This document shows, one piece after another, positions 7,291 through 53,711 of a stretch of DNA of 53,711 bases. The stretch spans positions 1 to 53,711 of the forward strand of contig JAJDUA010000022.1 in NCBI GenBank assembly GCA_022826905.1, written 5' to 3'. The translations under genes and the position numbers were made by a program. Below the pieces are notes generated by a model that did no database searches, was not told where the DNA came from, and saw only the letters and a program-made list of their open reading frames with translations. The stretch is from Candidatus Dadabacteria bacterium. Its GTDB lineage: Bacteria; Desulfobacterota_D; UBA1144; Nemesobacterales; Nemesobacteraceae. The first letter of the stretch is position 1. Every line of letters begins with the position of its first letter.

Positions 7291-9390
7291 TTAAGTGTTT
7301 CTTTTCTGCAGTTCCGAAAGCGCCAGGTCAAAATGTCTTCTGCAGAGCTTGATGAATTTCCTGTTTTTCCCCAAGTGTTCTTTTATCGCGTGAAGAGAAG
7401 CTCTGTTGCATACGAGCCTTACGTCCGCTCCGGTCCTGCCTTCAAGCTTTTCCGCAAGCGCGGTGAGTTTCACGTCCGTTCCGAGAGGTTTTTTCCGGGT
7501 GTGGATTTTCAGGATCTGGAGAATCTCCCGTTTTGACGGAGTCGGAATCTCGACTATCAGATCGAATCTTCCCGGTCTCAGAAGTGCCGGTTCTATAATG
7601 TCAATCCTGTTTGTCGCGGCAAGCACCAGAACATCCGGAAGTTCCTCAACCCCGTCAATTTCGGCAAGCAGCTGACTTACCACCCTTTCGCTCACGCGGG
7701 TCGAGTTAGATTCGGAGCGTCTGGGGCAAAGAGCGTCAAGTTCGTCGAAAAACACTATGCAGGGAGAAACCTGCTTCGCCTTTTTGAAAACTTCCCTTAC
7801 TGCGCGCTCCGATTCGCCGACATATTTGGAGAGAAGCTCCGCCCCCTTTATGGAAATGAAGTTGACTTCCGTTCTGTTGGCAAGAGCTTTTGCGAGAAGG
7901 GTTTTCCCAGTTCCCGGAGGGCCGTGAAGCAGTATTCCCTTGGGTGACTTTACGTCCAGGGCCTCGTAGAAGTTTCTGTGCTTCATGGGCCATATGACGG
8001 ATTCAATCAGGTCGTCTTTTACGTTCTCAAGACCTCCGACGTCATCCCAGGAGGTTTTCGGTATCTCAGCCACTATCTCCCTTATTGCGGAAGGATGAAT
8101 ATTTCGAAGCGCGGAAAGGAAGTCTTCCATGGAGACTTCGACAAGAAAGCTGTGCGCGACGTTGGAGATGAAGTCCTGTTCCATGTCCGGCAGAATGTTT
8201 GTAAGAGAATTTATGGCCGCCTCCCTGCAGAGATTCTCTATGTCGGCTCCCACGTAGCCGCTTGAGAGTTCGGAGAGTCTCTGAAGGTCCACGTCGTTTG
8301 AAAGAGGCATGTTTCTTGAATGAATCTGGAATATCTCCAGGCGGGCCTTGGTATCGGGGACCGGAAGGTGGATTTCCCTGTCGAACCTGCCCGGGCGGCG
8401 AAGCGCGGGATCGATCATGTCCGGGAGGTTGGTCGCTCCGATAACGGTAACGTTTCCCCTGTGCGTGAGACCGTCCATAAGCGAGAGAAGCTGTGCCACC
8501 ACCCTTTTTTCAACGTCTCCCGTAACCTTGTCCCGGCGGGGAGCTATCGCGTCTAGTTCATCCAGAAATATTATGGACGGCTGGTTCTTCGTCGCATTCT
8601 CGAATATCTGGCGCAGCTTGGCTTCGCTCTCTCCGTAGAACCTGTGAATTACCTCGGGGCCATTTATTACCTGGAAATTTGAATCCGTCTCAAACGCTAT
8701 GGCTTTTGCAAGCAGGGTTTTTCCGCTTCCCGGGGGGCCCGTGAGAAGGATTCCCCTGGGCGGCTGAACCCCGAGCTTTTCAAAAAGCGAAGGGAAGCGT
8801 ATTGGAAGTTCGAGAATCTCTTTTATTCTTTTTATCTGGCTTGAAAGTCCCCCTATGTCGATATACGAAACCTTTTCCGCGTCCACCTTTGTTCTCGGCC
8901 TGTGTATCACGTCCATGCGGGTTTTCTGGCTTATTACAACCGAGTGCTCGGGCATCGTGGTAAGCACGTCGAAATCTTCGGTCTTGGCGGCGGACACTCT
9001 CACAGATACCCTGTCTCCGACCGTTACGGCGAGCCCTTCGAGCCTGTTGCAGAGACGCTTGCTTTTGGCCGGGTCGTAGAGAAACGCCTTGTTTCTCGGA
9101 CACAGGGTTATCCTGCTTGCCTTCTCAAGGTCGGCTTTCGTCACTATTACTATGTCGTCAAGCTCAACTCCCGCATTCTCTCTGGTTACGGTGTCTATTT
9201 CTATTACGGACTCCGTCTCCAGTTCTTCGACGTCAAGCGGCAGGGCTCTTGCGACGGTTTTCTTCCTTCCGTCTATCTGCACCAGATCCCAGGAGGTAAG
9301 GCCCAGTTCCTGCATATCCAAGGGGCTTATTCTAGCATAACCCTTTCCCGAGTCTCTTGAGTGGATTTCCGAAATTTTAAGCGATATCAT
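7291..9390 (-). CDS. CDC48/p97/VAT-type double AAA+ ATPase
   Basis: A 699-residue homologue of the archaeal VAT and eukaryotic CDC48 segregase/unfoldase. Residues about 1-85 form the double-psi-barrel half of the CDC48 N-domain and 90-165 the second half. D1 has Walker A GPPGSGKT (218-225), Walker B IIFLDELD (273-280) and arginine-finger RRPGRFD. D2 has GPPGTGKT (490-497), IVFFDELD (545-552) and LRPGRFD. All ATPase residues are intact in both rings. The C-terminus lacks an HbYX tail for proteasome docking. Such proteins are rare in bacteria and usual in archaea and eukaryotes. It heads the operon with pilD and is divergent from recF. Confidence 0.93.
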
Positions 9391-16025: not shown

Positions 16026-18299
16026 TTACTTTTTCTTGCGTCTGCCGGTTTTTTTCGCGATGAGCTTCTTCAGTTCCCTGCGGTCGGGGCTCAGTAACTC
16101 TTTTACGTAATCGACGTTTACCTTGGTCACTATTATATGGCCGACTTCGGTGTTGACCGATTCGTAGATTCCGAGCTTCATCATTCCCTTGGTCTGCATG
16201 AGGTTGTCTTCCGTGGGGCTTACGTAATGCACGAAATCCGTTCTGTAACGGTGAATCAGGAACAGGTGAAGCATAGTCGCGAGGCGTTTCCGGCGAAGGG
16301 ATGTATCAAAATTGTTCTCATCCCTTACGGTGAGTATTTTCTCTCCTTTTCTGTCCTGCAGTATCTCGAATATGACGTCCGCCACTTTCTCGCCCTTGCT
16401 GTTTAGGATATTAAGTTCAAGAACGAAAGTTCCCACGGTGTGGGGCTTAAGTTCGGCGGTGAATGTGTCCTTGATTTTATAGTGCCTTGTCCAGGACTCA
16501 AGCCACTCCTCAAGAAGCTTGATGGAAACCTCCGTCTGGACCAGATGCTGGAACTGCGTCGAACCCTTGCCCATAGCCTTCGTGGTTGCGGTTCTTCCGG
16601 AACTTGCCACGAGCGCTCCGTCCATGCGGGGTCCTCCGACATGGGTCTGAGGAGTCTTGTAAGGCGAATCTATGAGCCTCAGCCTTCTCTGCACGCGGGC
16701 CAGGGCGAGCATTCCGTCTTCCATAAGCGCGGTTGCGAACTCTTCTGCAGCCATACCGTCGATTTGGTGGCCTCCGTAGGTTATGAAATCGAACACGAAG
16801 CCGAGCTTCCCTATCTCCTCTGGGAATTTCTTCATTTCCTCGTCGGTCATTCCCGTCGTGTCCCAGTTAAAGGAGGGAGAGAGGTTATAGGCAAGCATCT
16901 TGTCTGGAAAAACTTCGTGTATGGCGTCTGCGAACTGCCTTGCGTCCTCAAGGTCCGCCGTCTTGGTCTCCATCCAGAGCAGGTCGGCAAATGGCGCCAC
17001 AGCAAGCGACTTGGCAATCGCGTATTCGATCCCGCCTTTTACCTGGGAGTACCCCTCGGGCGTTCTTGAAATCTCGGGGTCCCATATGTAGTCGATTCCC
17101 AGGGAATCGGCCTTCTCCATGGCGTCTTTCGTGGAAGCGGTCTTGGCAAACTCCCTCCACTGCTCAACGGTCATGTCGAACTCAATGCCCTGCTCCATGT
17201 TAAACTCCATTAGCGTCTCTATCGTTTCGCCGAAGGTGCTTAAGCCGGATTCCTCTTCCCATATCTCGACGAACTTGGTGACTACGGAATCCAAAGCGGT
17301 TTCAAGATTCTGGGTATCCCCTTTCATTGCCTCTATGTTCTCGTCCACAAACGACGCTATGCCGGTTTCCTCAAGCCACTTGTCCGTCTCCGCGTAGGTC
17401 TCTTTGCTTATCTTGTAGAGCTTGTGGCCGTTTATCTCCTTTACGCCTTTTTCGTGGATTCTTCTAAGGATCGCGAGGTAGGCGTTCTTGTAGCTGGGGA
17501 TATTGAGCTTGGTTGCTCCCAGGATAAACGGCTGGTCCCGCTCGTCCCCGTTTCCGTCAAGAAGGGTGGCGGCTTCGGCGTCAGTCCTTGAGACTATTAT
17601 TCCAGGCACTTCCATGATATCGAGCTGGAACCGGGCGGCGTTAAGCCTCTTTATCTGCTCGTCGGAAGGAACAAGAACCTTTCCGCCCTGGTGACCGCAT
17701 TTCTTGGTTCCGGGCTTCTGGTCTTCTATGTGATAGCCTGTAACGCCCGCCTCGACGAACCTTCTGATAAGGTTTCTAACGTGGGCGTCTCCGCCGTGCC
17801 CAGTGTCCGCGTCGGCGACTATGAATGGGCTGTAGTCGATCTCGGGCGTCTGCTTCCTTTCCTTCTCTGTCATCCTTGCGCGGTTGTATCTCTGGTTCTT
17901 GTCCGCGGCCAGAAGAGCCCTCACTATGGGGGCCGCCTCATCTGGCACCTGGCTAAGCGGATAGCTCGCGAGATCCGCTCCCTGGTCCTCGCCGATCGAT
18001 CCCTTTGCCGACGTGGCCCATCCGCCGAGATATATGCCCTCTATTCCCTTTCTTTTCATCATGACCGCCTGGCCGGGCGAATAGGGGCCGAAGGACGTTA
18101 TCTGCTTTCGCTCCGAGAAAAGCTCGCGGAGTCTCTTGTAGAACGCCCCCGCGGCGTTTTTCGCGATCGAGTAGTCCCTTCTTATGGTTCCTCTCTGCTC
18201 CACCACCTGGCGGGGCGAGTAAAGACGGGTTATTCCCCTGAAGCGCGCGCTTGAGAAATACCTTTTCGTCTTCCTTATCTCAGCTTCTAACTGGCTCAT
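16026..18299 (-). CDS. aceA: Isocitrate lyase, long ICL2 type
   Basis: Cleaves isocitrate to succinate and glyoxylate, first step of the glyoxylate shunt, allowing growth on acetate or fatty acids. The active-site loop KKCGHQGGK has Cys201; the DADTGHGG metal/substrate segment is at 163-170. At 757 residues it is far longer than the 430-residue E. coli enzyme and resembles mycobacterial ICL2. It has an insertion in the barrel and an extra C-terminal region (roughly 590-757), which in ICL2 is an acetyl-CoA-responsive domain. It lies 44 bases downstream of malate synthase and is followed by a strong terminator. Confidence 0.95.
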
Positions 18300-18343
18300 C
18301 GATATACTCTCCTGAAAATAAAAATGGTTGTTTCTTCGGGAAC

Positions 18344-20227
18344 CTAGATTACGAAATCGAGGTTCTCGGTGATTCTCGTGTCATTGCCCGCAAACTCAGT
18401 CATGTAGAGCTCGATCCTCTGCGAGGCCACGTCGTGGTCGTGGTTATTTAGGTTTATGTTGAGCAGGTCTATGTACCACGGCACCTTTACGTCGTCAAGC
18501 ACGTAGGCTCTCACTATCTGCTTCGCTATCGGAAGGGTGGTGGGCTTTGAGATGTCGTGGACGTCCCTGTCGCTTGCCTCCTGGAGTTTTGTGTACTCTT
18601 CCTCAAGAAGCCTCTCGAAGACCTCGACGGTGAACGTGTCCCCGGCCTTAAGCCCGGTCTCGGGGTCGTCCTCGGTGAGCTTCGCTCCCTTGTGGACCCA
18701 TTCCCAGAGTATGCTGAGCCTTATCTCCCCGGTTGCGGCGTCCTCCATCAGGTAGAGGATGTCGTCGTTTCCGAAGAAGTCGGCGGGCTTAAGCGCCGCG
18801 GCCTGGAATCCCTGGCCGAACGCGTTTCCGTACTGAAGTCCGACGCTGAGCAGGTTGCGTGCGCCCCTTATCGTTCTCGGGGCGGGCTCAAGAAGTATGA
18901 GGCCGTCTGCGTCCTCCTGTGTATATGTGAGGGGAGGGAACTCTCTTCCGAGCTGGTTCTCCTCGCCGGCCTTTTCCCAGACGGGTCTTATTATGTGAAC
19001 CATCTTCCAGTGGGCGACCCATTTGCCGCTGGCGCCTTCCTGCTGCTCCCTTACGGCCCCGGCATAGGCTTTCTCCATGCTGCTCTCTACCCCTTCCTTC
19101 GACCCCACCGGTATGTTCGGTTCCATGCCTCCCTGCCAGAGTGCGAAGTTGCCGTTTACGTCAGGGGTGTTTACAGCCCTTCTCACTCGGTCCTCGTAAT
19201 TTCTCATGTATCCGTAAGTCATGGTGATAGACTCTATGTTCGGGTTAATGAAATCCTCATCCCACGCCACGGCGTCTGAGACGCTGTTTATGTAATCCCA
19301 TCTGCCGGTGTTAAACCCGGCGAAGTGCTTGCCGAGAACTGCCCTTATCTCCATGAGCTGGAACGTTTCCTCAAGTTGCTCTATAAGCACATATACCTTT
19401 ATCGTGCCTTCGGGAAGCCCGATGTGGCCCTCAAGGGCGGTAAGCATCTCGTTCCAGAGCGCGGCTTCCTCGGCGGTCTGGATCTTCGGCAGGTAAAGGA
19501 CTATGGATGAGTTTCTCTTGGCGAGTTCCCTGTAGTTGTTAACGACAAAAAGCGTCATGTCGACCACGGAAGCAGAAAGCGCTACGCCGTCGGCGTCGCG
19601 TATGTGGCGGTCATCCAGATGAAGTCCTCTCGCCCTGAAGATAACGGTGGTGAAGTCAAGCTGCTTTTCCCAGTCCTCTATTATGTCGTGCCCGAAAAAG
19701 CTCTGCCCCCACCTGTTCATCTCCCCGGCCACTCCTTCAGCCGTTTTCATGAACACTTCGTCCCTCGCGATTGCGAGCTTGAGGTTGCGCTGGTTGTCAA
19801 GAGACATGGTCGAGATCTGCCCGAGGGCATCCTCGCCGTCGAACATCCAGCCGTCTGCGCCCGAGAGAAGGGCGTAGGCGACGTTTCTTATGCTTTTTTC
19901 AACCGGGGAGTTCGGTTTTGCCGCAGGTCCGGTTCCCTGTATCCACTGTCTTCTGAGATCGTGGGGAATCTCCGGCCCCTCAAATTTTCCGTCCCTTGCG
20001 TCTTGGACCTTCATGTCGGTGCGCGGTATGAGGGAATCGGGATCAAGAAAGTTTATTCTTTCCTTGGATTCGTAGCGTCTTTTTCTTCTCTGGGTCCTTT
20101 TTTCCATAAGGGTCTTCTGTTCGCCGTTATAGCGGGCCATGAATTCAAGGGCCTCTAGCGCCTCCGGCGTGTAAACGTCCCCGTAGGATTGCTCGATGTT
20201 GTCTCTTATGTGCAGTGTGGTGCCCAT
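18344..20227 (-). CDS. aceB: Malate synthase
   Basis: Condenses glyoxylate with acetyl-CoA to malate, second step of the glyoxylate shunt. The conserved [12 protein letters not shown] block carries the catalytic arginine, and [19 protein letters not shown] corresponds to the family's catalytic-aspartate region. At 627 residues it is longer than E. coli AceB (about 530) because of an N-terminal extension rich in Arg/Lys (residues about 40-70). aceB-aceA form a two-gene operon, and no glcD or iclR regulator gene is present. The 190 bases upstream must contain the promoter. Confidence 0.93.
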
Positions 20228-46285: not shown

Positions 46286-47155
46286 TCAGATGCCCAAACC
46301 GAATCCGATAGCGAAGGTGTAACCGACGTAGACTCCCCATTCGCTGATTTCAAAATCGTGATCAACTTTTGCCGTCGAGATGGTCAATCCATCTCCCGAA
46401 CTGGAATCAAATTTATACTTGGAGTAGGTAATCCTCAGATCAAGACGATTTTGTTCGCTTCCGAATTCTACTCCAGCTCCCACAAGCCAGGGCCACGCGC
46501 GAAATTCCTTGCGGGTCACGCCCGTAATCCGCTCGGTAGTGCCGTCGGGAAGAGCAACCATGCCGTCATAAGCACCGTCAAATGTGAAGTCCGCCCACTT
46601 AAGGCCTCCGACTAGGTAAATTGAACCGCCGCTTCCCAGAATGTCTTCCTGGGGTGACAACCCCAGCTTCGCGTTAAATCCCGCGCTGTAGTTCTTCTCC
46701 AAGTCCCAGTCTCCGGGAAACACGTCGGGAGCGTCCGGCGAGGAAGTGTCATCAACTCCTTTAAGTTGGCCGTCTACTTTTTTGTTCAGGTTAAAAGCGA
46801 AGTCAAGTTCGCCTGAAAAATAGGCTTGGCCGGGGAGGTCCCATCGATGTCCCAAGATGGCCTTGATGGAACTGATTCCACCCTTGCCGCTATCGCTTTC
46901 GTAATTTGACATGAGTTCCATGTTGGGAAAATTGTGAGTTACCGTTTTCTTATAGTCCGCGTCGGCGTATTCTCCTCCGAGCGCTCCTCCTATGTAAAAA
47001 CCACCCAGGCCCTCGGCGTTCGCGACCTGAGGTTGCAACGCGAAGCAAAAGGCTGCCAAGATTAAAGCCGCGGCAAGCTGCCGCAAACGGGTTGTCGACT
47101 GGTTAAAACACTGTGGAGCAGCATATACGGATGACCAGAAAGCTTCCTTTATCAT
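46286..47155 (-). CDS. Outer-membrane beta-barrel protein
   Basis: A 289-residue porin-like protein with a signal segment (RQLAAALILAAFCFALQPQVANA, cleavage near ANA/EG). A short N-region of about 20 residues precedes it. The mature part alternates in beta-barrel fashion (GGFYIGGALGGEY, AYFSGELDFAFNL, YLVGGLKWADF, LVGAGVEFG) and ends GVYVGYTFAIGFGLGI. It resembles OmpA-like or 8-10-strand barrel families without the peptidoglycan-binding domain. A strong AGGAGG precedes ATG 47155. Its function is not known. Confidence 0.85.
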   Translation of the reverse strand: MIKEAFWSSVYAAPQCFNQSTTRLRQLAAALILAAFCFALQPQVANAEGLGGFYIGGALGGEYADADYKKTVTHNFPNMELMSNYESDSGKGGISSIKAILGHRWDLPGQAYFSGELDFAFNLNKKVDGQLKGVDDTSSPDAPDVFPGDWDLEKNYSAGFNAKLGLSPQEDILGSGGSIYLVGGLKWADFTFDGAYDGMVALPDGTTERITGVTRKEFRAWPWLVGAGVEFGSEQNRLDLRITYSKYKFDSSSGDGLTISTAKVDHDFEISEWGVYVGYTFAIGFGLGI

Positions 47156-47412: not shown

Positions 47413-48081
47413 ATGATCGATCTTTACACGGCGGCCACGCCGAACGGCAAGAAGGTTTCAATAATGCTTGAAGAACTGGGAGCCGCCTACAAAGTTCACG
47501 CTCTCAACCTATCTGAGTTTGAGCACAAAGAGCCGTGGTTTCTCGAGATAAACCCGAACGGGAAAATACCCGCGATAGTAGATAATGATAACGGCACGGC
47601 GGTTTTTGAGTCAGGAGCCATACTCATATATCTTGCCGACAAATTCGGAAGCTTTCTTCCGCCGGTCGGGGACAGGCGCAGAACAACGTGTATCCAGTGG
47701 CTCATGTTCCAGATGTCTGCTGTAGGTCCCATGCAGGGACAGCTGAACGTCTTTTTGAAGTACGCCCCGGAGAAAATCCCCTACGCCATAAGGAGATACA
47801 CCGAGGAAACGAAAAGAATATACTCGGTGCTCGACGAAAGACTCTCAAGGGTGGAGTATGTTGCTGGAGAGTATTCAATTGTTGACATAGCCACTTGGCC
47901 TTGGATAAATGCCTACGATTGGGTCAGAATGGATCTTGAAGCTTTTCCGAATCTCAGTAGATGGCGCGCCACGGTAGGCGAAAGACCCGCCGTGATAAGA
48001 GGAAGTGGCATTCCTCCGAACTCAGAGGAAGAGGAAACGGAAGAAGAGAAGATAAAGAGAATCCAGAAACTGCTTTCATAG
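47413..48081 (+). CDS. Glutathione S-transferase (Nu/Ure2p-like)
   Basis: A 222-residue GST with an N-terminal thioredoxin fold (MIDLYTAATPNGKKVSIMLEE) in which Thr9/Asn11-like residues, not Cys or Tyr, mark the Nu/YfcG class. NPNGKIPAIVD and ESGAILIYLADKFG (glutathione contacts) follow, then the helical domain with IVDIATWPWINAY. The C-terminal 20 residues are Glu/Lys-rich. Members act in disulfide or organic hydroperoxide chemistry. A decayed gene follows at once. Confidence 0.92.
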   Translation: MIDLYTAATPNGKKVSIMLEELGAAYKVHALNLSEFEHKEPWFLEINPNGKIPAIVDNDNGTAVFESGAILIYLADKFGSFLPPVGDRRRTTCIQWLMFQMSAVGPMQGQLNVFLKYAPEKIPYAIRRYTEETKRIYSVLDERLSRVEYVAGEYSIVDIATWPWINAYDWVRMDLEAFPNLSRWRATVGERPAVIRGSGIPPNSEEEETEEEKIKRIQKLLS

Positions 48082-48421: not shown

Positions 48422-49393
48422 CTAGAGGGGTTTACGCGCCAGGAAACAATATAACGGCGTGAAGATTCCGGTCTTGCCGCCCGCGATGTAGGCGTTGGCG
48501 GTCCGATCCATTAGCCTCAGGACTTCCGTGGAGCCTTTCGGGAACATCCCCAGTATCTCAGCTAGCCTAGATGCCCCGTTGAACACCTTGCGACCCAGCC
48601 GAGTCCTGTACAGAGGGTTGCCCAGCGTTCCGTGCCGGGTCTCCATAGGTTGATACCACGGCGTGGTAGAATCGTTTTTCTCGGCGGCCCGGTCTATCCC
48701 CTCGATAACCTGGAATCCCGCGGTCTCAAGCGCTTGGTTTACCTCGTCCATCGTCGCAATATCCTTGAGCGCGATGCCGTGCATCAGTTCCTGCTTGATG
48801 GCCCGGTGCCGATTGTCGTCGGGATCGAACTTGTCCGTAACGCACATTTCTTGACCCCAAAAGATGGCTCCGGGTTTCAGCACGCGGTAGATCTCAGCAA
48901 AAGCGTCCGCTTTTATTGGCGCATGGCATGTCGATTCGATCGCATAGGCCCGGTCGAAAGTGTTGTCCGCGACGGTGCTCATATCCATGAAGCTGCACGC
49001 GAGGTAGTCAACCATGTGGTCGAGTCCTGCCTCGGTGTTCAGCAATTTTGCTTTGTCAAGCTGGATTTCATTGTTGTTGACCCCGACCACTCTGACTCCG
49101 GTCTCGCGGACGACCCGGCGCATCGGGCCGCCGACCCCGCAACCGATATCGACCACCGTCATGCCCTCGCGCAGCTCCAGTTTGGCAATCATCAGCCGCT
49201 GATGCCGGATCTTGGAGTCCTCTAGGCTCTCGCGGGGCGATAGCGGTGCGAAGTGAAGGGATTCGCCCCAGCCGAACACCATGAACTCGCTGCAAAGGTC
49301 GTAGTATTCCTTGACGGTTTGGGTGTGGTCGTAGCTCGCCGCACCGGTATTTTCCGCGGATACTCTGTCTGTCCATCCATTGAAGTATTGCAC
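48422..49393 (-). CDS. Sterol C-24 methyltransferase homologue (ERG6/SMT-like)
   Basis: A SAM-dependent methyltransferase closest in pattern to eukaryotic sterol C-24 methyltransferases. From GTG 49393, sterol region I is YYDLCSEFMVFGWGESLHFA (30-49), motif I VDIGCGVGGP (81-90), then NNNEIQLDKAK and YAIESTCHAP (150-159). TPWYQPM and the C-terminal GGKTGIFTP complete the family order. Cyclopropane and tocopherol methyltransferases lack this full set. It should alkylate a delta-24 sterol side chain, though substrate is untested. Start is uncertain: the frame is open for 30 codons upstream (to 49484) through an A8G10 run. It is divergent from the Rieske gene. Confidence 0.85.
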   Translation of the reverse strand: MQYFNGWTDRVSAENTGAASYDHTQTVKEYYDLCSEFMVFGWGESLHFAPLSPRESLEDSKIRHQRLMIAKLELREGMTVVDIGCGVGGPMRRVVRETGVRVVGVNNNEIQLDKAKLLNTEAGLDHMVDYLACSFMDMSTVADNTFDRAYAIESTCHAPIKADAFAEIYRVLKPGAIFWGQEMCVTDKFDPDDNRHRAIKQELMHGIALKDIATMDEVNQALETAGFQVIEGIDRAAEKNDSTTPWYQPMETRHGTLGNPLYRTRLGRKVFNGASRLAEILGMFPKGSTEVLRLMDRTANAYIAGGKTGIFTPLYCFLARKPL

Positions 49394-49410
49394 GCGGTGG
49401 GCGATGTTTG

Positions 49411-49428
49411 CCCCCCCCCCTTTTTTTT
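49411..49428. repeat. C10T8 homopolymer (A8G10 on coding strand) at the methyltransferase start
   Basis: Ten C followed by eight T, 18 bases, in frame with the methyltransferase on the minus strand. It lies 18 bases before GTG 49393. Slippage could alter translation of an N-terminal extension or promoter spacing; it is also a likely sequencing-error site. Confidence 0.7.
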
Positions 49429-49869
49429 GTACGCGGCCTTCAGTCTGTTCGATAGTTTGCGGAGTTTTAAGATGTGTTTCTACCTACCTACCCTCTATTA
49501 CTTGCTCAGAAATTTTATCCAACTAAGATATTGAATCAATTAATTTTCCGCAAACTTTTCAACTGGTTTCTGCGGAAAGCGCTGCAACCCAGTGCTTGAG
49601 GAGGATTCCGAAGCGATATCAGACAATGGGAAAATCCGCATCTTTTTACCAATACTCTTTTTGATTACGCACTTTTACTTCCCAAGGCCATATTTGCAAG
49701 CCCTTCTCTCATGGGATTTCAAAGTAAATACATCTATTAATCCTGCCGTCCGCCGTAGGCATATAGGGAACTTATAATGTTTACACTCTTTCTATTTATA
49801 TATAATCTTCAAAGCTAATAGCAAATGCATTTCTGGTACTTGACGCTGGATAAGCGGAGATAACGGCAA
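49429..49869. other. Divergent intergenic region of the sterol-type locus
   Basis: 441 AT-rich bases between the methyltransferase and the Rieske gene. Two TATAAT boxes (49773-49778 and 49801-49806) point right, toward the Rieske gene; the second has TTTACA 15 bases upstream of it. GGAG at 49855 precedes the Rieske ATG. No other gene or clear operator is seen. Confidence 0.5.
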
Positions 49870-50913
49870 ATGAATCCAAACCCAAACGTGCGCAAGGATG
49901 AAGCCTTGCTTTACCCATTTCCGGAAGGCTGGTATTTTGTCGCCAGCCGCAAGATGATTGAAAAAAAAGGACTCCTGAAGAGAACCTGGCTTGGAGAACA
50001 GATTGTTGTCTGGTGCAACGGGGAAGGGGAAGTTTGTGTTGCTGAGGCGATCTGTCCGCATCTTGGCGCCGATCTTGGTCCTGAGGTAGGAGGGCGGGTA
50101 CGCGACGGTTGCCTCGTATGTCCTTTTCACGGCTTCGAGTTTGATGTGAGCGGTCAATGCGTGGCGACACCATTCGCTCCTCCGCCAAAGACCGCCAAGC
50201 TTAAGGTGTTCGAGACACGTGAAATTGAGGGTCTTATATTCGGTTGGTGGGGCAATGGCGGTCGAGAACCTCAATGGTACCTGCCTGAACTTCCCGCGAC
50301 GGATACCGACTGGAGTGGGATGGAATTCTGCCACCTCCATTTCCCAGGACATCCTCAGGAAATTGCTGAGAATTCCGTGGATGCTGCACACCTTAACTAT
50401 GTGCATCACTACGACAGTGTGAACATTGTCGGTTCGGTATCAATTGACGGCACCATGCTCAGGAACTCCTTTAACTTCAAACGTAGCCTTACGGTTGCTG
50501 GCATCAAGCTTTTCGAGTACGACGTTTCTGCGGTCGCCAGCATACACGGGCTTGGCTATTCAATTGTCGAGGTTCACGAGCATTCGATCAACATGGACAC
50601 CCGCATGTGGGTGCTCGCAACGCCGATTGACGGCAAGTTTATTGAGATGACGTTGGTGAGCCAAGTGCGACAACTCCGTAATCCGAAGGGGCTGGGCCAC
50701 GGGCTGCGACTCCTTCCCCTGGGACTCAGGAACCGCATCATGAACAAGGTTCTCATTGCTTCCCAGAAGCATGATGTTATGCAGGATGTCGTCATCTGGA
50801 GCAACCTGAAACATCGGTCACTTCCGAGGCTTTGCAGTGTTGACGGCGATATCGGGAAGTATCGACGCTACTGCAGGCAGTTCTATCCGGATGGTCAGTA
50901 TTATAATCCGTAG
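49870..50913 (+). CDS. Rieske non-haem iron oxygenase (DAF-36/KshA-like)
   Basis: A 347-residue Rieske oxygenase alpha subunit. [2Fe-2S] ligands are C62-x-H64 in CPHLGAD and C84-x-x-H87 in CPFHG. Mononuclear iron ligands are in N168-x2-D171-x2-H174-x4-H179. The opening (FPEGWYFVASRKM, then TWLGEQIVVWCNG) and the single-subunit length fit DAF-36/Neverland cholesterol 7-desaturases and KshA 3-ketosteroid hydroxylases. It lies between a sterol-methyltransferase homologue and an RND transporter. A partner reductase is not in the window. Sterol use is inferred. Confidence 0.85.
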   Translation: MNPNPNVRKDEALLYPFPEGWYFVASRKMIEKKGLLKRTWLGEQIVVWCNGEGEVCVAEAICPHLGADLGPEVGGRVRDGCLVCPFHGFEFDVSGQCVATPFAPPPKTAKLKVFETREIEGLIFGWWGNGGREPQWYLPELPATDTDWSGMEFCHLHFPGHPQEIAENSVDAAHLNYVHHYDSVNIVGSVSIDGTMLRNSFNFKRSLTVAGIKLFEYDVSAVASIHGLGYSIVEVHEHSINMDTRMWVLATPIDGKFIEMTLVSQVRQLRNPKGLGHGLRLLPLGLRNRIMNKVLIASQKHDVMQDVVIWSNLKHRSLPRLCSVDGDIGKYRRYCRQFYPDGQYYNP

Positions 50914-50968
50914 AGATAAGTAGAGATGTTTGTGCCGATTTCGGCGCCGTGCAGTGGAATCTCTGGAT

Positions 50969-53299
50969 CTATGCGGTTGAGCCTCTCAATCGTTTCCTGA
51001 TCTGCTCACTGGTCTCTTTGGTCTCGTCAAGCAGCATCAAAAGTGGCGGGAGGAAGAGAAAATCTGCCACAAGGGCGATAATTACCGTTATTCCTACCAA
51101 AAGACCAAGCACCTGGTTTCCAACCAGCCCGGATGTTCCAAATACCATGAAGCCCAGTCCGAACACTATGGTAGTCGTGAACAGCGCCCGGCCCACAGAG
51201 CGAAAGGCAATTTGAACGGACTCCGAAGGCAGTTTCCCCGCTTTTCTGCTTTCCGTGTATTTTGTCATGAAATGGATCGTGTCGTCTACAATGATGCCGA
51301 ATGCTATAGCGGTGACGACCGCTGCCGGGACTCCGACCTCTCCCACCAGATGTCCCCACAGTCCCATGGCCATGGCGGCCGGAATAAAATTGGGGATCAG
51401 ACTGACCAGTCCCAGGCGTATGCTTCTGAATATGGCGAACAGCAGCAGGGAGACAATCACCATCGCCACAAAAGTGCCTTGCAACATGTTTTCAATGTTC
51501 CTCTGGATCGAATGAGACCCCACAATCGAAATTCCCGTAGCGCCGGTCTCCATGCTGGGGGCATTTTGCTGCAGCCATGCACGCGCGCGATTGTCGAGAT
51601 TGATTTTTTCCAGGCTGGACATGCTTTTCACTGAAACTGTTACGCGTGTTGTCCTCCGGTCATGGTCGATCAGATTGTTCAGGTCGCGGCCTACCGGAAG
51701 GGAAAATTCGTAAAGCAGAAGATACTGCGCGGCGAGTTCAGGGTCGTCGGGGAGTGCGTAGTAATCCGGGTTGTCACCATGCAGATTCTTGTTCAGACGC
51801 TTCATGATGTCGGCAATCGAGAAAATATGGACAAATTCCGGTTGCTCGCGGTACCACTGCGCGAACGCATCGACCTTCTTGAGGTATTCTATGTCCGTGA
51901 TGGCGCCTTCACGTCCGGAGTCAAGAGAGTACTCATAGGTTTCCACTCCAGGGAAATTCTCACTCAGGAAATCCGCGGATCGCCGGAACTCATAACTCTC
52001 ATCAAGAACCTCAAGCCAGTTTTCCCTGAGTTCGATCTTGGAGATGCCGGCAACCAGCAGTAAAGTTACAACGCCAAAGGAGCAGAGAAGGACCGTACGA
52101 TGAGAGATGACAAAACGACTGAGACGATCGAAAAAATCCTGTCTGTTCTCGTGGGTCTTCCGGGCACGAATGGGTAGTATCGACAGGAATGCGGGCAGCA
52201 GGGTCACCGAAAAGCCAAAAGCGCATATGCAACCGAACGCCACGATGTTCCCCATGACCTGAAACGGCGGCATATCTACGAAATTCAAGCTCAGAAATCC
52301 GATTGCAGTTGTGAACGAGGTAAGAAAAACAGGCCACACGTTCACTCGCACAGCATGGATCGCCGCCTCTGTTCTCTCCATGCCCTGGCGTAGGCCCCCT
52401 GCCATTCCCTCAATAATGTGCACGGAATGAGCGACGGTCACAGCCATCAGTACGAACATTGCGGCGCCGCTTTCACCAAACAGTTTTAAGCCTGTCCACC
52501 CGGCAAAGCCCATCGCGGATGGGATGACGGCAGCAATCATCAGCACAATGGCAAGTGTCCCCCATATCGAACGTATCAGAATCAGGGCGACAAGCAGCAT
52601 GGTTCCAAGAGCAATAGGAGCAAGGATGGCCGTTTCATCGTCAAGCGCGTCACCTATGACACGATTGAGGATAAGTCCGCCTAAAAGGTGGTAGTCAATG
52701 GATGTATATTCCCCCCGGGCGTCGGCAACAGTCTCATACAGGTAGTCGGTAACCTCTCGCTTAGCCAATTCCCGATTATCGTCAGGAAGCGTAATACTGA
52801 CAACCAGACCTGCAACCCGTCCGTCACGGGAGACAAATCGCCCGGCAACTTCCTCAGTACTGAGAGCGATATCCATGATTCGCTGTATGTCGGTATCGCT
52901 CAGGGAACTGGCTTCGTCGATAAGCTGCTCAACAACCAACTCATCTTCGAACCCCTCGCTATGTGTATAGTTTGAAATAGAGTCGACGCGGGTGGCGTAC
53001 GGGGTGCGCCAAAGCTGCTCAGTCAGCTCTTCAATGGCAACAAGCGTTTCCGGTGTGAAAATGGTGCCGTTGTGCGGCGCTATGGCAACCAATACAGCAT
53101 CGGATAGTGCATATGTCTCTTCAAGCTGTTCAAGCGCGATGAGGTGTGGATCGGATTCACCAAAGTGATTACGGAAGTCTACACCCACCACAGTCAAGCG
53201 TGTGGCCCCCGCAGCAAGGACCAGCATAACAAGCAAAGAGAGCAGGATAGTCAACCATCGACGGGTGACTATCTTCGAGATGCAGGATTCCAGCTTCAT
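50969..53299 (-). CDS. RND/MMPL-family transporter (two-repeat, sterol-sensing-like)
   Basis: A 776-residue inner-membrane RND protein with the two-fold layout: a membrane helix, a large periplasmic loop (about 35-200 and 400-570), and two bundles of five or six helices. The C-terminal bundle has GIIVDDTIHF, the usual Asp pair for proton coupling; in the N-terminal bundle AVTVAHSVHII replaces it with Ala/His. Relatives include HpnN (hopanoids), MmpL proteins and eukaryotic Patched/NPC1 sterol carriers. It is convergent with the Rieske gene (55 bases apart). Cargo is unproven. Confidence 0.87.
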   Translation of the reverse strand: MKLESCISKIVTRRWLTILLSLLVMLVLAAGATRLTVVGVDFRNHFGESDPHLIALEQLEETYALSDAVLVAIAPHNGTIFTPETLVAIEELTEQLWRTPYATRVDSISNYTHSEGFEDELVVEQLIDEASSLSDTDIQRIMDIALSTEEVAGRFVSRDGRVAGLVVSITLPDDNRELAKREVTDYLYETVADARGEYTSIDYHLLGGLILNRVIGDALDDETAILAPIALGTMLLVALILIRSIWGTLAIVLMIAAVIPSAMGFAGWTGLKLFGESGAAMFVLMAVTVAHSVHIIEGMAGGLRQGMERTEAAIHAVRVNVWPVFLTSFTTAIGFLSLNFVDMPPFQVMGNIVAFGCICAFGFSVTLLPAFLSILPIRARKTHENRQDFFDRLSRFVISHRTVLLCSFGVVTLLLVAGISKIELRENWLEVLDESYEFRRSADFLSENFPGVETYEYSLDSGREGAITDIEYLKKVDAFAQWYREQPEFVHIFSIADIMKRLNKNLHGDNPDYYALPDDPELAAQYLLLYEFSLPVGRDLNNLIDHDRRTTRVTVSVKSMSSLEKINLDNRARAWLQQNAPSMETGATGISIVGSHSIQRNIENMLQGTFVAMVIVSLLLFAIFRSIRLGLVSLIPNFIPAAMAMGLWGHLVGEVGVPAAVVTAIAFGIIVDDTIHFMTKYTESRKAGKLPSESVQIAFRSVGRALFTTTIVFGLGFMVFGTSGLVGNQVLGLLVGITVIIALVADFLFLPPLLMLLDETKETSEQIRKRLRGSTA

Positions 53300-53568
53300 A
53301 CGATCATGCAGAATTACGCAATATGTGTAGGTTCTAGGTCTGGCATTTCCTCTTCACTTTGCCACGTCAAGACCTATATGCCTTTACAGCGGTATATTTA
53401 CTGAACACAGGATAACTATAGCACGACAAACAATTTAACTGACTCTTTACATCTTGAGAATCCGAGATTGCCCAGATGCTGGCAACTTCCTATCTTAAAG
53501 AGTCTAAAAGAAACCAGTTTGCCTCTATGAACCAGATAGGCGTTGCTTTTGATTGCCGCTTGTTTCAC

Positions 53569-53711
53569 CTCACCACTTGAATTCCGAAATGCAACACTGA
53601 CTCAGATAATCTTCTTTCAGGGGAGTTTAGCACGGAGATGGACAGGGGGCAATGCTCTTCGTAGCGAGGGCGAGCCCGAGCGAAGAAGAGCATTGCCCAA
53701 GACCTGTGATT
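53569..53711 (+). repeat. Right terminal copy of the dispersed hairpin repeat
   Basis: Bases 53590-53711 are the exact reverse complement of 1-122. The hairpin arms are GGGCAATGCTCTTC (53647-53660) and its complement (53685-53698). The repeat appears to begin near CACTTGAA at 53573, the point where similarity to the left and internal copies also begins. The sequence 53300-53568 between the transporter start and this repeat holds nothing I can identify. Confidence 0.9.

Follow-up and report, generated by a model that had tools for sequence, protein, structure and literature searches.

A probable sterol-remodelling gene island, with one end in a contig of Dadabacteria related to sponge symbionts

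Functional bacterial sterol methyltransferases (SMTs) have been published, including those of sponge-associated bacteria, and an active enzyme was obtained from a Chlamydiae MAG in which no other sterol genes occur; the use of acquired sterols has accordingly already been proposed (Brown et al. 2023, PMC10070321). At the time of that study the enzymes of 26-methylation had yet to be discovered; its main text does not contain the words Dadabacteria, Rieske, P450 or transport. In Ircinia symbionts, steroid gene clusters with a cyclase were found to be shared horizontally among many phyla (Kelly et al. 2022, PMC9531527); the main text of that work makes no mention of Dadabacteria. An SMT-family methyltransferase that edits an acquired sterol is known from nematodes, namely 4-SMT (PMC8172173). 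The sources of unusual sponge sterols are disputed, and hence so is the meaning of the fossil steranes that date the first animals. Here we describe a trio of genes which, judged by sequence, probably lies at the edge of a gene island for remodelling sterols, in Dadabacteria that are relatives of sponge symbionts, and which would act on acquired sterols.

The trio and the rest of the island

The whole stretch of DNA analysed here (the window, 53,711 nucleotides) corresponds to contig 51 in a genome of 1.78 Mb with a completeness of 93%, and the nearest named relatives of this genome are Candidatus Dadabacteria MAGs. From the isolate codes of the relatives we presume that the nearest Dadabacteria MAGs, as well as most of the other loci compared below, are of sponge origin. 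The first-pass annotation had placed an SMT, a Rieske oxygenase and an RND protein next to each other near the right end of the window, and all three open reading frames are indeed present there:

46286-47155, minus strand: outer-membrane beta-barrel protein, kept neighbour (OMP_b-brl 33 bits; same position in relatives)
47413-48081, plus strand: GST-family protein, conserved next to the island within the genus (GST domains; same position in relatives)
48422-49393, minus strand: SMT1, sterol-methyltransferase family, divergent clade (Sterol_MT_C, tree, region I)
49870-50913, plus strand: KshA/DAF-36-type Rieske oxygenase (KshA_C and Rieske domains, iron ligands)
50969-53299, minus strand: RND/MMPL transporter (MMPL and a weak Sterol-sensing match)
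53300-53711, no strand: right end of the window, by synteny running on into contig C13 with the remaining island (alignment)

The SMT and Rieske genes are divergent, while the Rieske and RND genes are convergent. As the strands alternate (-, +, -), the three genes are neighbours and a single operon is ruled out. Directly upstream of the SMT1 start lie C10 and T8 homopolymer runs (window 49403-49430), which might reflect slippage or an error of assembly. Elsewhere in the window we noted adjacent genes for isocitrate lyase and malate synthase (16026-20227), that is, a glyoxylate shunt, and a CDC48/p97-like AAA ATPase with a CDC48_N domain (7291-9390); ATPases bearing this domain are commoner in archaea and eukaryotes.

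The trio, at first taken to be the unit, is the edge of a larger island that numbers about a dozen genes; the rest of it is found on contig C13 (locus L006):

L006 7353-8735: flavin oxidase
L006 8892-10913: GPP34-P450 fusion
L006 11196-12335: ERG4/ERG24-type reductase
L006 12424-13425: SMT2
L006 14790-16133: DUF1302-like protein
L006 16279-17391: SMT3
L006 17427-18248: LolA-like protein

Since the right end of the window and the left part of contig C13 align to neighbouring stretches of two relatives (G002 and G007), the two contigs very probably adjoin in the genome. In relatives, where the island mostly lies on one contig, it shows the outer-membrane barrel, GST, SMT1, Rieske and RND genes and continues, after several kb with sensor and regulator genes, to the flavin oxidase and the P450-GPP34 fusion. 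Further on come the ERG4/ERG24 reductase, SMT2, a 447-aa barrel and, in some relatives, another SMT; a LolA-like protein, a second RND and an acyl-CoA dehydrogenase follow. The reductase adjoins the RND gene in G007 and G008.

Proteins of the island

SMT1 has 323 aa from a GTG start, with an open frame reaching about 30 codons further upstream, and bears a Sterol_MT_C domain (61.1 bits, Pfam cut-off 21.7) after the SAM methyltransferase domain. It had been credited with a full ERG6-type motif set. This holds for YAIESTCHAP, which is exact, and only in part for the aromatic sterol region I, which reads FMVFGWG compared with FYEYGWG in canonical SMTs: GWG-ESLHF is retained and YEY is replaced by MVF. 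Such a change marks nearly the whole SMT1 clade (FMVFGWG or near variants), most canonical SMTs of our scan having FYEYGWG or FYEFGWG; in SMT2 and SMT3 the region is FCERGWG.

In a tree rooted on seven other methyltransferases, an outgroup from which tocopherol methyltransferases were left out, SMT1 and canonical SMTs jointly formed a clade (99/97). SMT1 is therefore placed with the SMTs, and the other methyltransferases of its own and related genomes fall outside. Within this group the SMT1 clade (99/96) is sister to the canonical SMTs (85/81), and SMT2 and SMT3 lie inside the canonical clade. Two eukaryotic SMTs (yeast and Arabidopsis) also fell among canonical SMTs, which we treat as a lead and not as a test. 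With its altered region I and a position outside the canonical clade, SMT1 does not qualify as a canonical C-24 SMT, and both features rule out a plain ERG6 orthologue. C-24 alkylation by SMT1, as initially proposed, is thus an assumption only, because this is a deep sister clade with an FMVFGWG region I. The altered region suggests instead that SMT1 may use a substrate or a methylation position other than those of canonical SMTs; that SMT-family enzymes with other target positions exist is illustrated by the nematode 4-SMT (PMC8172173).

The Rieske oxygenase (347 aa) matches KshA_C with 94 bits and Rieske with 64 bits (Pfam). CxH, CxxH, DxxHxxxxH and the distal Asp are all found, and the Rieske and mononuclear iron ligands are invariant in 24/24 aligned relatives, so the earlier statement that no ligand is missing can be extended to these. 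In its KshA_C domain, CxH and CxxH pairs and mononuclear iron ligands, the protein agrees with the KshA_C type. Its best solved-structure match is 3-ketosteroid 9alpha-hydroxylase (82 bits). Its identity as SdmA, the 4beta-methylsterol monooxygenase, is ruled out by an NCBIfam score of 34.3 bits, far under the cut-off of 600. The nematode protein DAF-36 is another Rieske oxygenase that edits an acquired sterol. We also observed a second type of SMT locus (L151, L117 (G009); L100, L103), in which a canonical SMT stands beside another Rieske protein, with 26-28% identity to that of the window and a weak SdmA match.

The third protein (776 aa) belongs to the RND superfamily, as first assigned: it scores 128 bits for MMPL and 26 bits for Sterol-sensing (Pfam cut-off 22.3). 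Its predicted model (mean pLDDT 65) matches structures of the MmpL, HpnN and NPC1 classes, a fold class which fits lipid cargo and does not give the identity of that cargo. Scores far under the NCBIfam cut-offs rule it out both as a BstA sterol transporter (34 bits, cut-off 1400) and as an HpnN hopanoid transporter (107, cut-off 752). As for its partners, the 447-aa island protein matches DUF1302 under the Pfam cut-off, and its structure model was not usable (pLDDT 31). This sub-threshold match, together with a LolA/DUF1329-like protein and the RND protein, suggests an envelope-spanning lipid route.

The closest solved structure to the island reductase is delta14-sterol reductase; among 41 relatives, an ERG4/ERG24-type reductase above the cut-off occurs in genus members only. 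The fusion of a GPP34 (GOLPH3-like) domain with a cytochrome P450 (L006:8892-10913) recurs in 34 homologues from other loci, across phyla, with the heme Cys kept in 34/34 and His where the Cys loop usually has Arg. Its best solved match is CYP51, weakly (73 bits), and its best NCBIfam scores are terpene and peptide oxygenases. The I-helix motif is LGDGFSF, presumably unlike the CYP51 signature. The flavin oxidase resembles LkcE, a polyketide pathway enzyme.

On one hand, the closest matches of the reductase (delta14-sterol reductase), the P450 (CYP51) and the Rieske protein (a steroid hydroxylase) support a sterol reading. On the other hand, no sterol-specific signature was found in the P450, the flavin oxidase or the RND protein, which counts against it. 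One might thus consider a different imported or self-made isoprenoid or lipid as the substrate, the SMT1 clade being the methyltransferase of such a compound. The differing region I of SMT1, the terpene and peptide oxygenase scores and the likeness to LkcE would agree with this idea, but the same island holds an ERG4/ERG24 reductase and the canonical-type SMT2 and SMT3, and SMT1 has kept its Sterol_MT_C domain, so we regard it as very unlikely.

Distribution and the lack of sterol synthesis

SMT1 is present in 11 of the 14 genus genomes, and the Rieske (identity at least 78%) and RND (identity at least 84%) proteins occur in exactly these 11. All three are missing from G001, G005 and G010, which counts against a sterol-remodelling island; these are draft assemblies, contigs of G001 and G005 end inside the island, and part of the absence could therefore be gaps. 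The trio is missing from the sister genus, and other members of the order have no close match. Wherever contigs permit the check, Dadabacteria SMT1 genes keep the Rieske-RND pair as neighbour, with SMT1 beyond the Rieske gene in some species and beyond the RND gene in G009, G011, G012 and G013. It had been suggested that the three might be independent accessory genes, neighbours by chance, and the alternating strands would suit this. Perfect co-occurrence within the genus, which is the outcome of the check in relatives, and repeated association in other phyla leave it with almost no probability.

SMT1 is not kept everywhere, as it has an internal TAG in G009 (L136:18775-19743) and is split by a frame change in G012 (L139:10395-11359), through decay or assembly error. 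These two broken copies, like the lost YEY of region I, count against sterol remodelling. Monophyly of all nine Dadabacteria SMT1 genes was rejected (p 7e-5), while without G004, whose gene groups with an alphaproteobacterial one, it was not (p 0.11); separate acquisition of three SMT1 lineages in the genus is thus only partly supported.

Our scan of bacterial and archaeal genomes, with MAG taxonomy and binning taken as given, revealed SMT1-clade relatives (54-80% identical) in MAGs of Chloroflexota, Actinomycetota, Acidobacteriota, Gemmatimonadota and Pseudomonadota. Around many of these genes we find the series MMPL, SMT1, P450/GPP34, Rieske and flavin oxidase, in some cases with ERG4/ERG24, so SMT1, the P450-GPP34 fusion, the Rieske protein and the flavin oxidase form a cassette that recurs in five phyla besides Dadabacteria. 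Among loci drawn from this one scan, P450-GPP34 was near 34/49 SMT1 loci and 0/14 canonical-SMT loci (Fisher p 2e-6), and a Rieske gene near 29/49 and 0/14, respectively (Fisher p 4e-5), p values which are descriptive because the genomes are related. The most widely conserved SMT1 partners are the GPP34-P450 fusion, the Rieske protein and the flavin oxidase. Close linkage of the RND family is limited to Dadabacteria and a few alphaproteobacterial loci; a Defluviicoccus locus combines the cassette with an RND protein (70% identical) and a LolA-like protein (73% identical) within about 11 kb.

A Rieske protein of the KshA_C family, with KshA as its best solved match, could also mean that the island serves to break down host sterols as a carbon source, with the Rieske enzyme opening the rings and nearby beta-oxidation genes removing the side chain. 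Genes for acyl-CoA dehydrogenase, hydratase, hydroxyacyl-CoA dehydrogenase and thiolase do adjoin the island in G007, and glyoxylate shunt genes lie in the window. Yet three SMTs and a sterol reductase speak of building and not of breakdown, and for the acyl-CoA dehydrogenase the top-scoring family is a short-chain acryloyl-CoA-reductase type. Moreover, the Rieske protein of the window is the only KshA_C protein of its genome, and no beta-oxidation genes are found in the cross-phylum cassette. We find degradation quite unlikely.

No squalene/oxidosqualene cyclase, squalene epoxidase or squalene synthase was found in 15 genomes (14 of the genus and one of the sister genus). These absences rest on family searches in which control genomes gave matches each time, and the genus includes one genome assembled as a single contig of 1.59 Mb. 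The lack of cyclase and epoxidase, at first noted for the window, is therefore true of the whole genome and genus, with squalene synthase absent too. This rules out a de novo sterol biosynthesis cluster and strengthens the proposal of acquired-sterol modification; to judge by the genes, the island enzymes most likely edit acquired sterols. In other genomes bearing the SMT1 clade (G085, G087, G090, G092, G093 and G096) we observed cyclase matches whose open frames measure 1146-1300 aa and resemble fused squalene epoxidase-cyclase proteins.

A related scenario is that the island finishes lanosterol-type intermediates from sterol-making co-symbionts by means of a CYP51-like C-14 demethylase, a C-14 reductase, a Rieske C-4 demethylase and an SMT. 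The best matches of the P450 (CYP51, 73 bits) and the reductase, the weak SdmA match of the Rieske protein, the long cyclase frames in some cassette-bearing genomes and the published CYP51-ERG24-cyclase clusters in sponge bacteria of many phyla (PMC9531527) all fit it. The SdmA score of 34 against a cut-off of 600 and the weakness of the CYP51 match do not. Nor does the LGDGFSF I-helix, which presumably differs from the CYP51 signature. We thus hold this scenario to be rather unlikely.

Proposed function and comparison with known systems

If the island indeed remodels acquired sterols, a cell without triterpene synthesis would obtain them from outside, be it a sponge host, the diet of that host or sterol-making bacteria nearby. 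Carbons would then be added by the SMT-family methyltransferases; the likeliest target of SMT2 and SMT3 is a delta-24 side chain, and SMT1, with its altered region I, may act at a different position or on a different substrate. The KshA/DAF-36-type Rieske oxygenase and the GPP34-fused P450 would carry out oxidation, the ERG4/ERG24-type reductase would saturate the sterol, and two RND proteins, the LolA-like carrier and the DUF1302-like barrel would move the lipid across the envelope. What the sequences show is gene content, linkage and co-occurrence, the cross-phylum cassette, the missing upstream enzymes and the intact catalytic motifs and iron and heme ligands; sterol as the substrate, its uptake, the reactions with their order and position, the direction of transport and a benefit to the cell we infer.

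A bolder scenario, speculative though worth stating, is that the SMT1 clade methylates sterols at a new position or by a new chemistry (as a 26-methylase, a cyclopropane-forming enzyme or a ring methylase, for example), and that with the P450-GPP34, Rieske and flavin oxidase it makes up a mobile cassette turning acquired sterols into unusual sponge sterols in many phyla. As the core gene set is common to several bacterial phyla, bacteria may help to make such sterols, and the SMT1 clade with its recurring partners offers a short list of testable enzymes. A symbiont-related lineage unable to make sterols, but equipped with three SMTs, a pair of oxygenases, a reductase and transporters, would imply that the sterol profiles of host and symbiont have to be read together.

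The trio had been put forward as an undescribed bacterial system. In the literature (main texts) we found no description of this cyclase-free island, of the SMT1 clade or of the GPP34-P450 fusion, and no sterol paper on a GPP34-P450 link or on a steroid DUF1302/DUF1329/RND module; both bacterial SMTs and steroid gene clusters in sponge bacteria are on record already (PMC10070321, PMC9531527). With Brown et al. 2023 (PMC10070321) our locus shares SMT-family enzymes in sponge-associated and other bacteria, but the clusters named there contain erg and sdmAB homologues. The Ircinia clusters (PMC9531527) are similar in that they belong to sponge bacteria from many phyla, show genes shared from one phylum to another and include ERG24, CYP51 and SMT; their core is ERG24-CYP51-lanosterol synthase, whereas here we find SMT1, GPP34-P450, Rieske and flavin oxidase in a genus without cyclase. 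Nematode remodelling of dietary sterol (DAF-36 and the 4-SMT STRM-1) is alike by description, an acquired sterol being edited by a Rieske and an SMT-family enzyme, in other organisms. DUF1302/DUF1329/RND modules for lipid or hydrocarbon export (AmeD, PMC6394551) also unite RND, LolA/DUF1329-like and DUF1302-like proteins, but the DUF1302 match of the island is under the Pfam cut-off. Finally, the SdmAB/BstABC sterol locus of Methylococcus capsulatus (PMC10942540) likewise encodes both a Rieske oxygenase and an RND protein; it differs in that the SdmA and BstA models give 34 bits each here (cut-offs 600 and 1400), and in that the partners in our island are LolA-like and DUF1302-like proteins instead of BstB and BstC.
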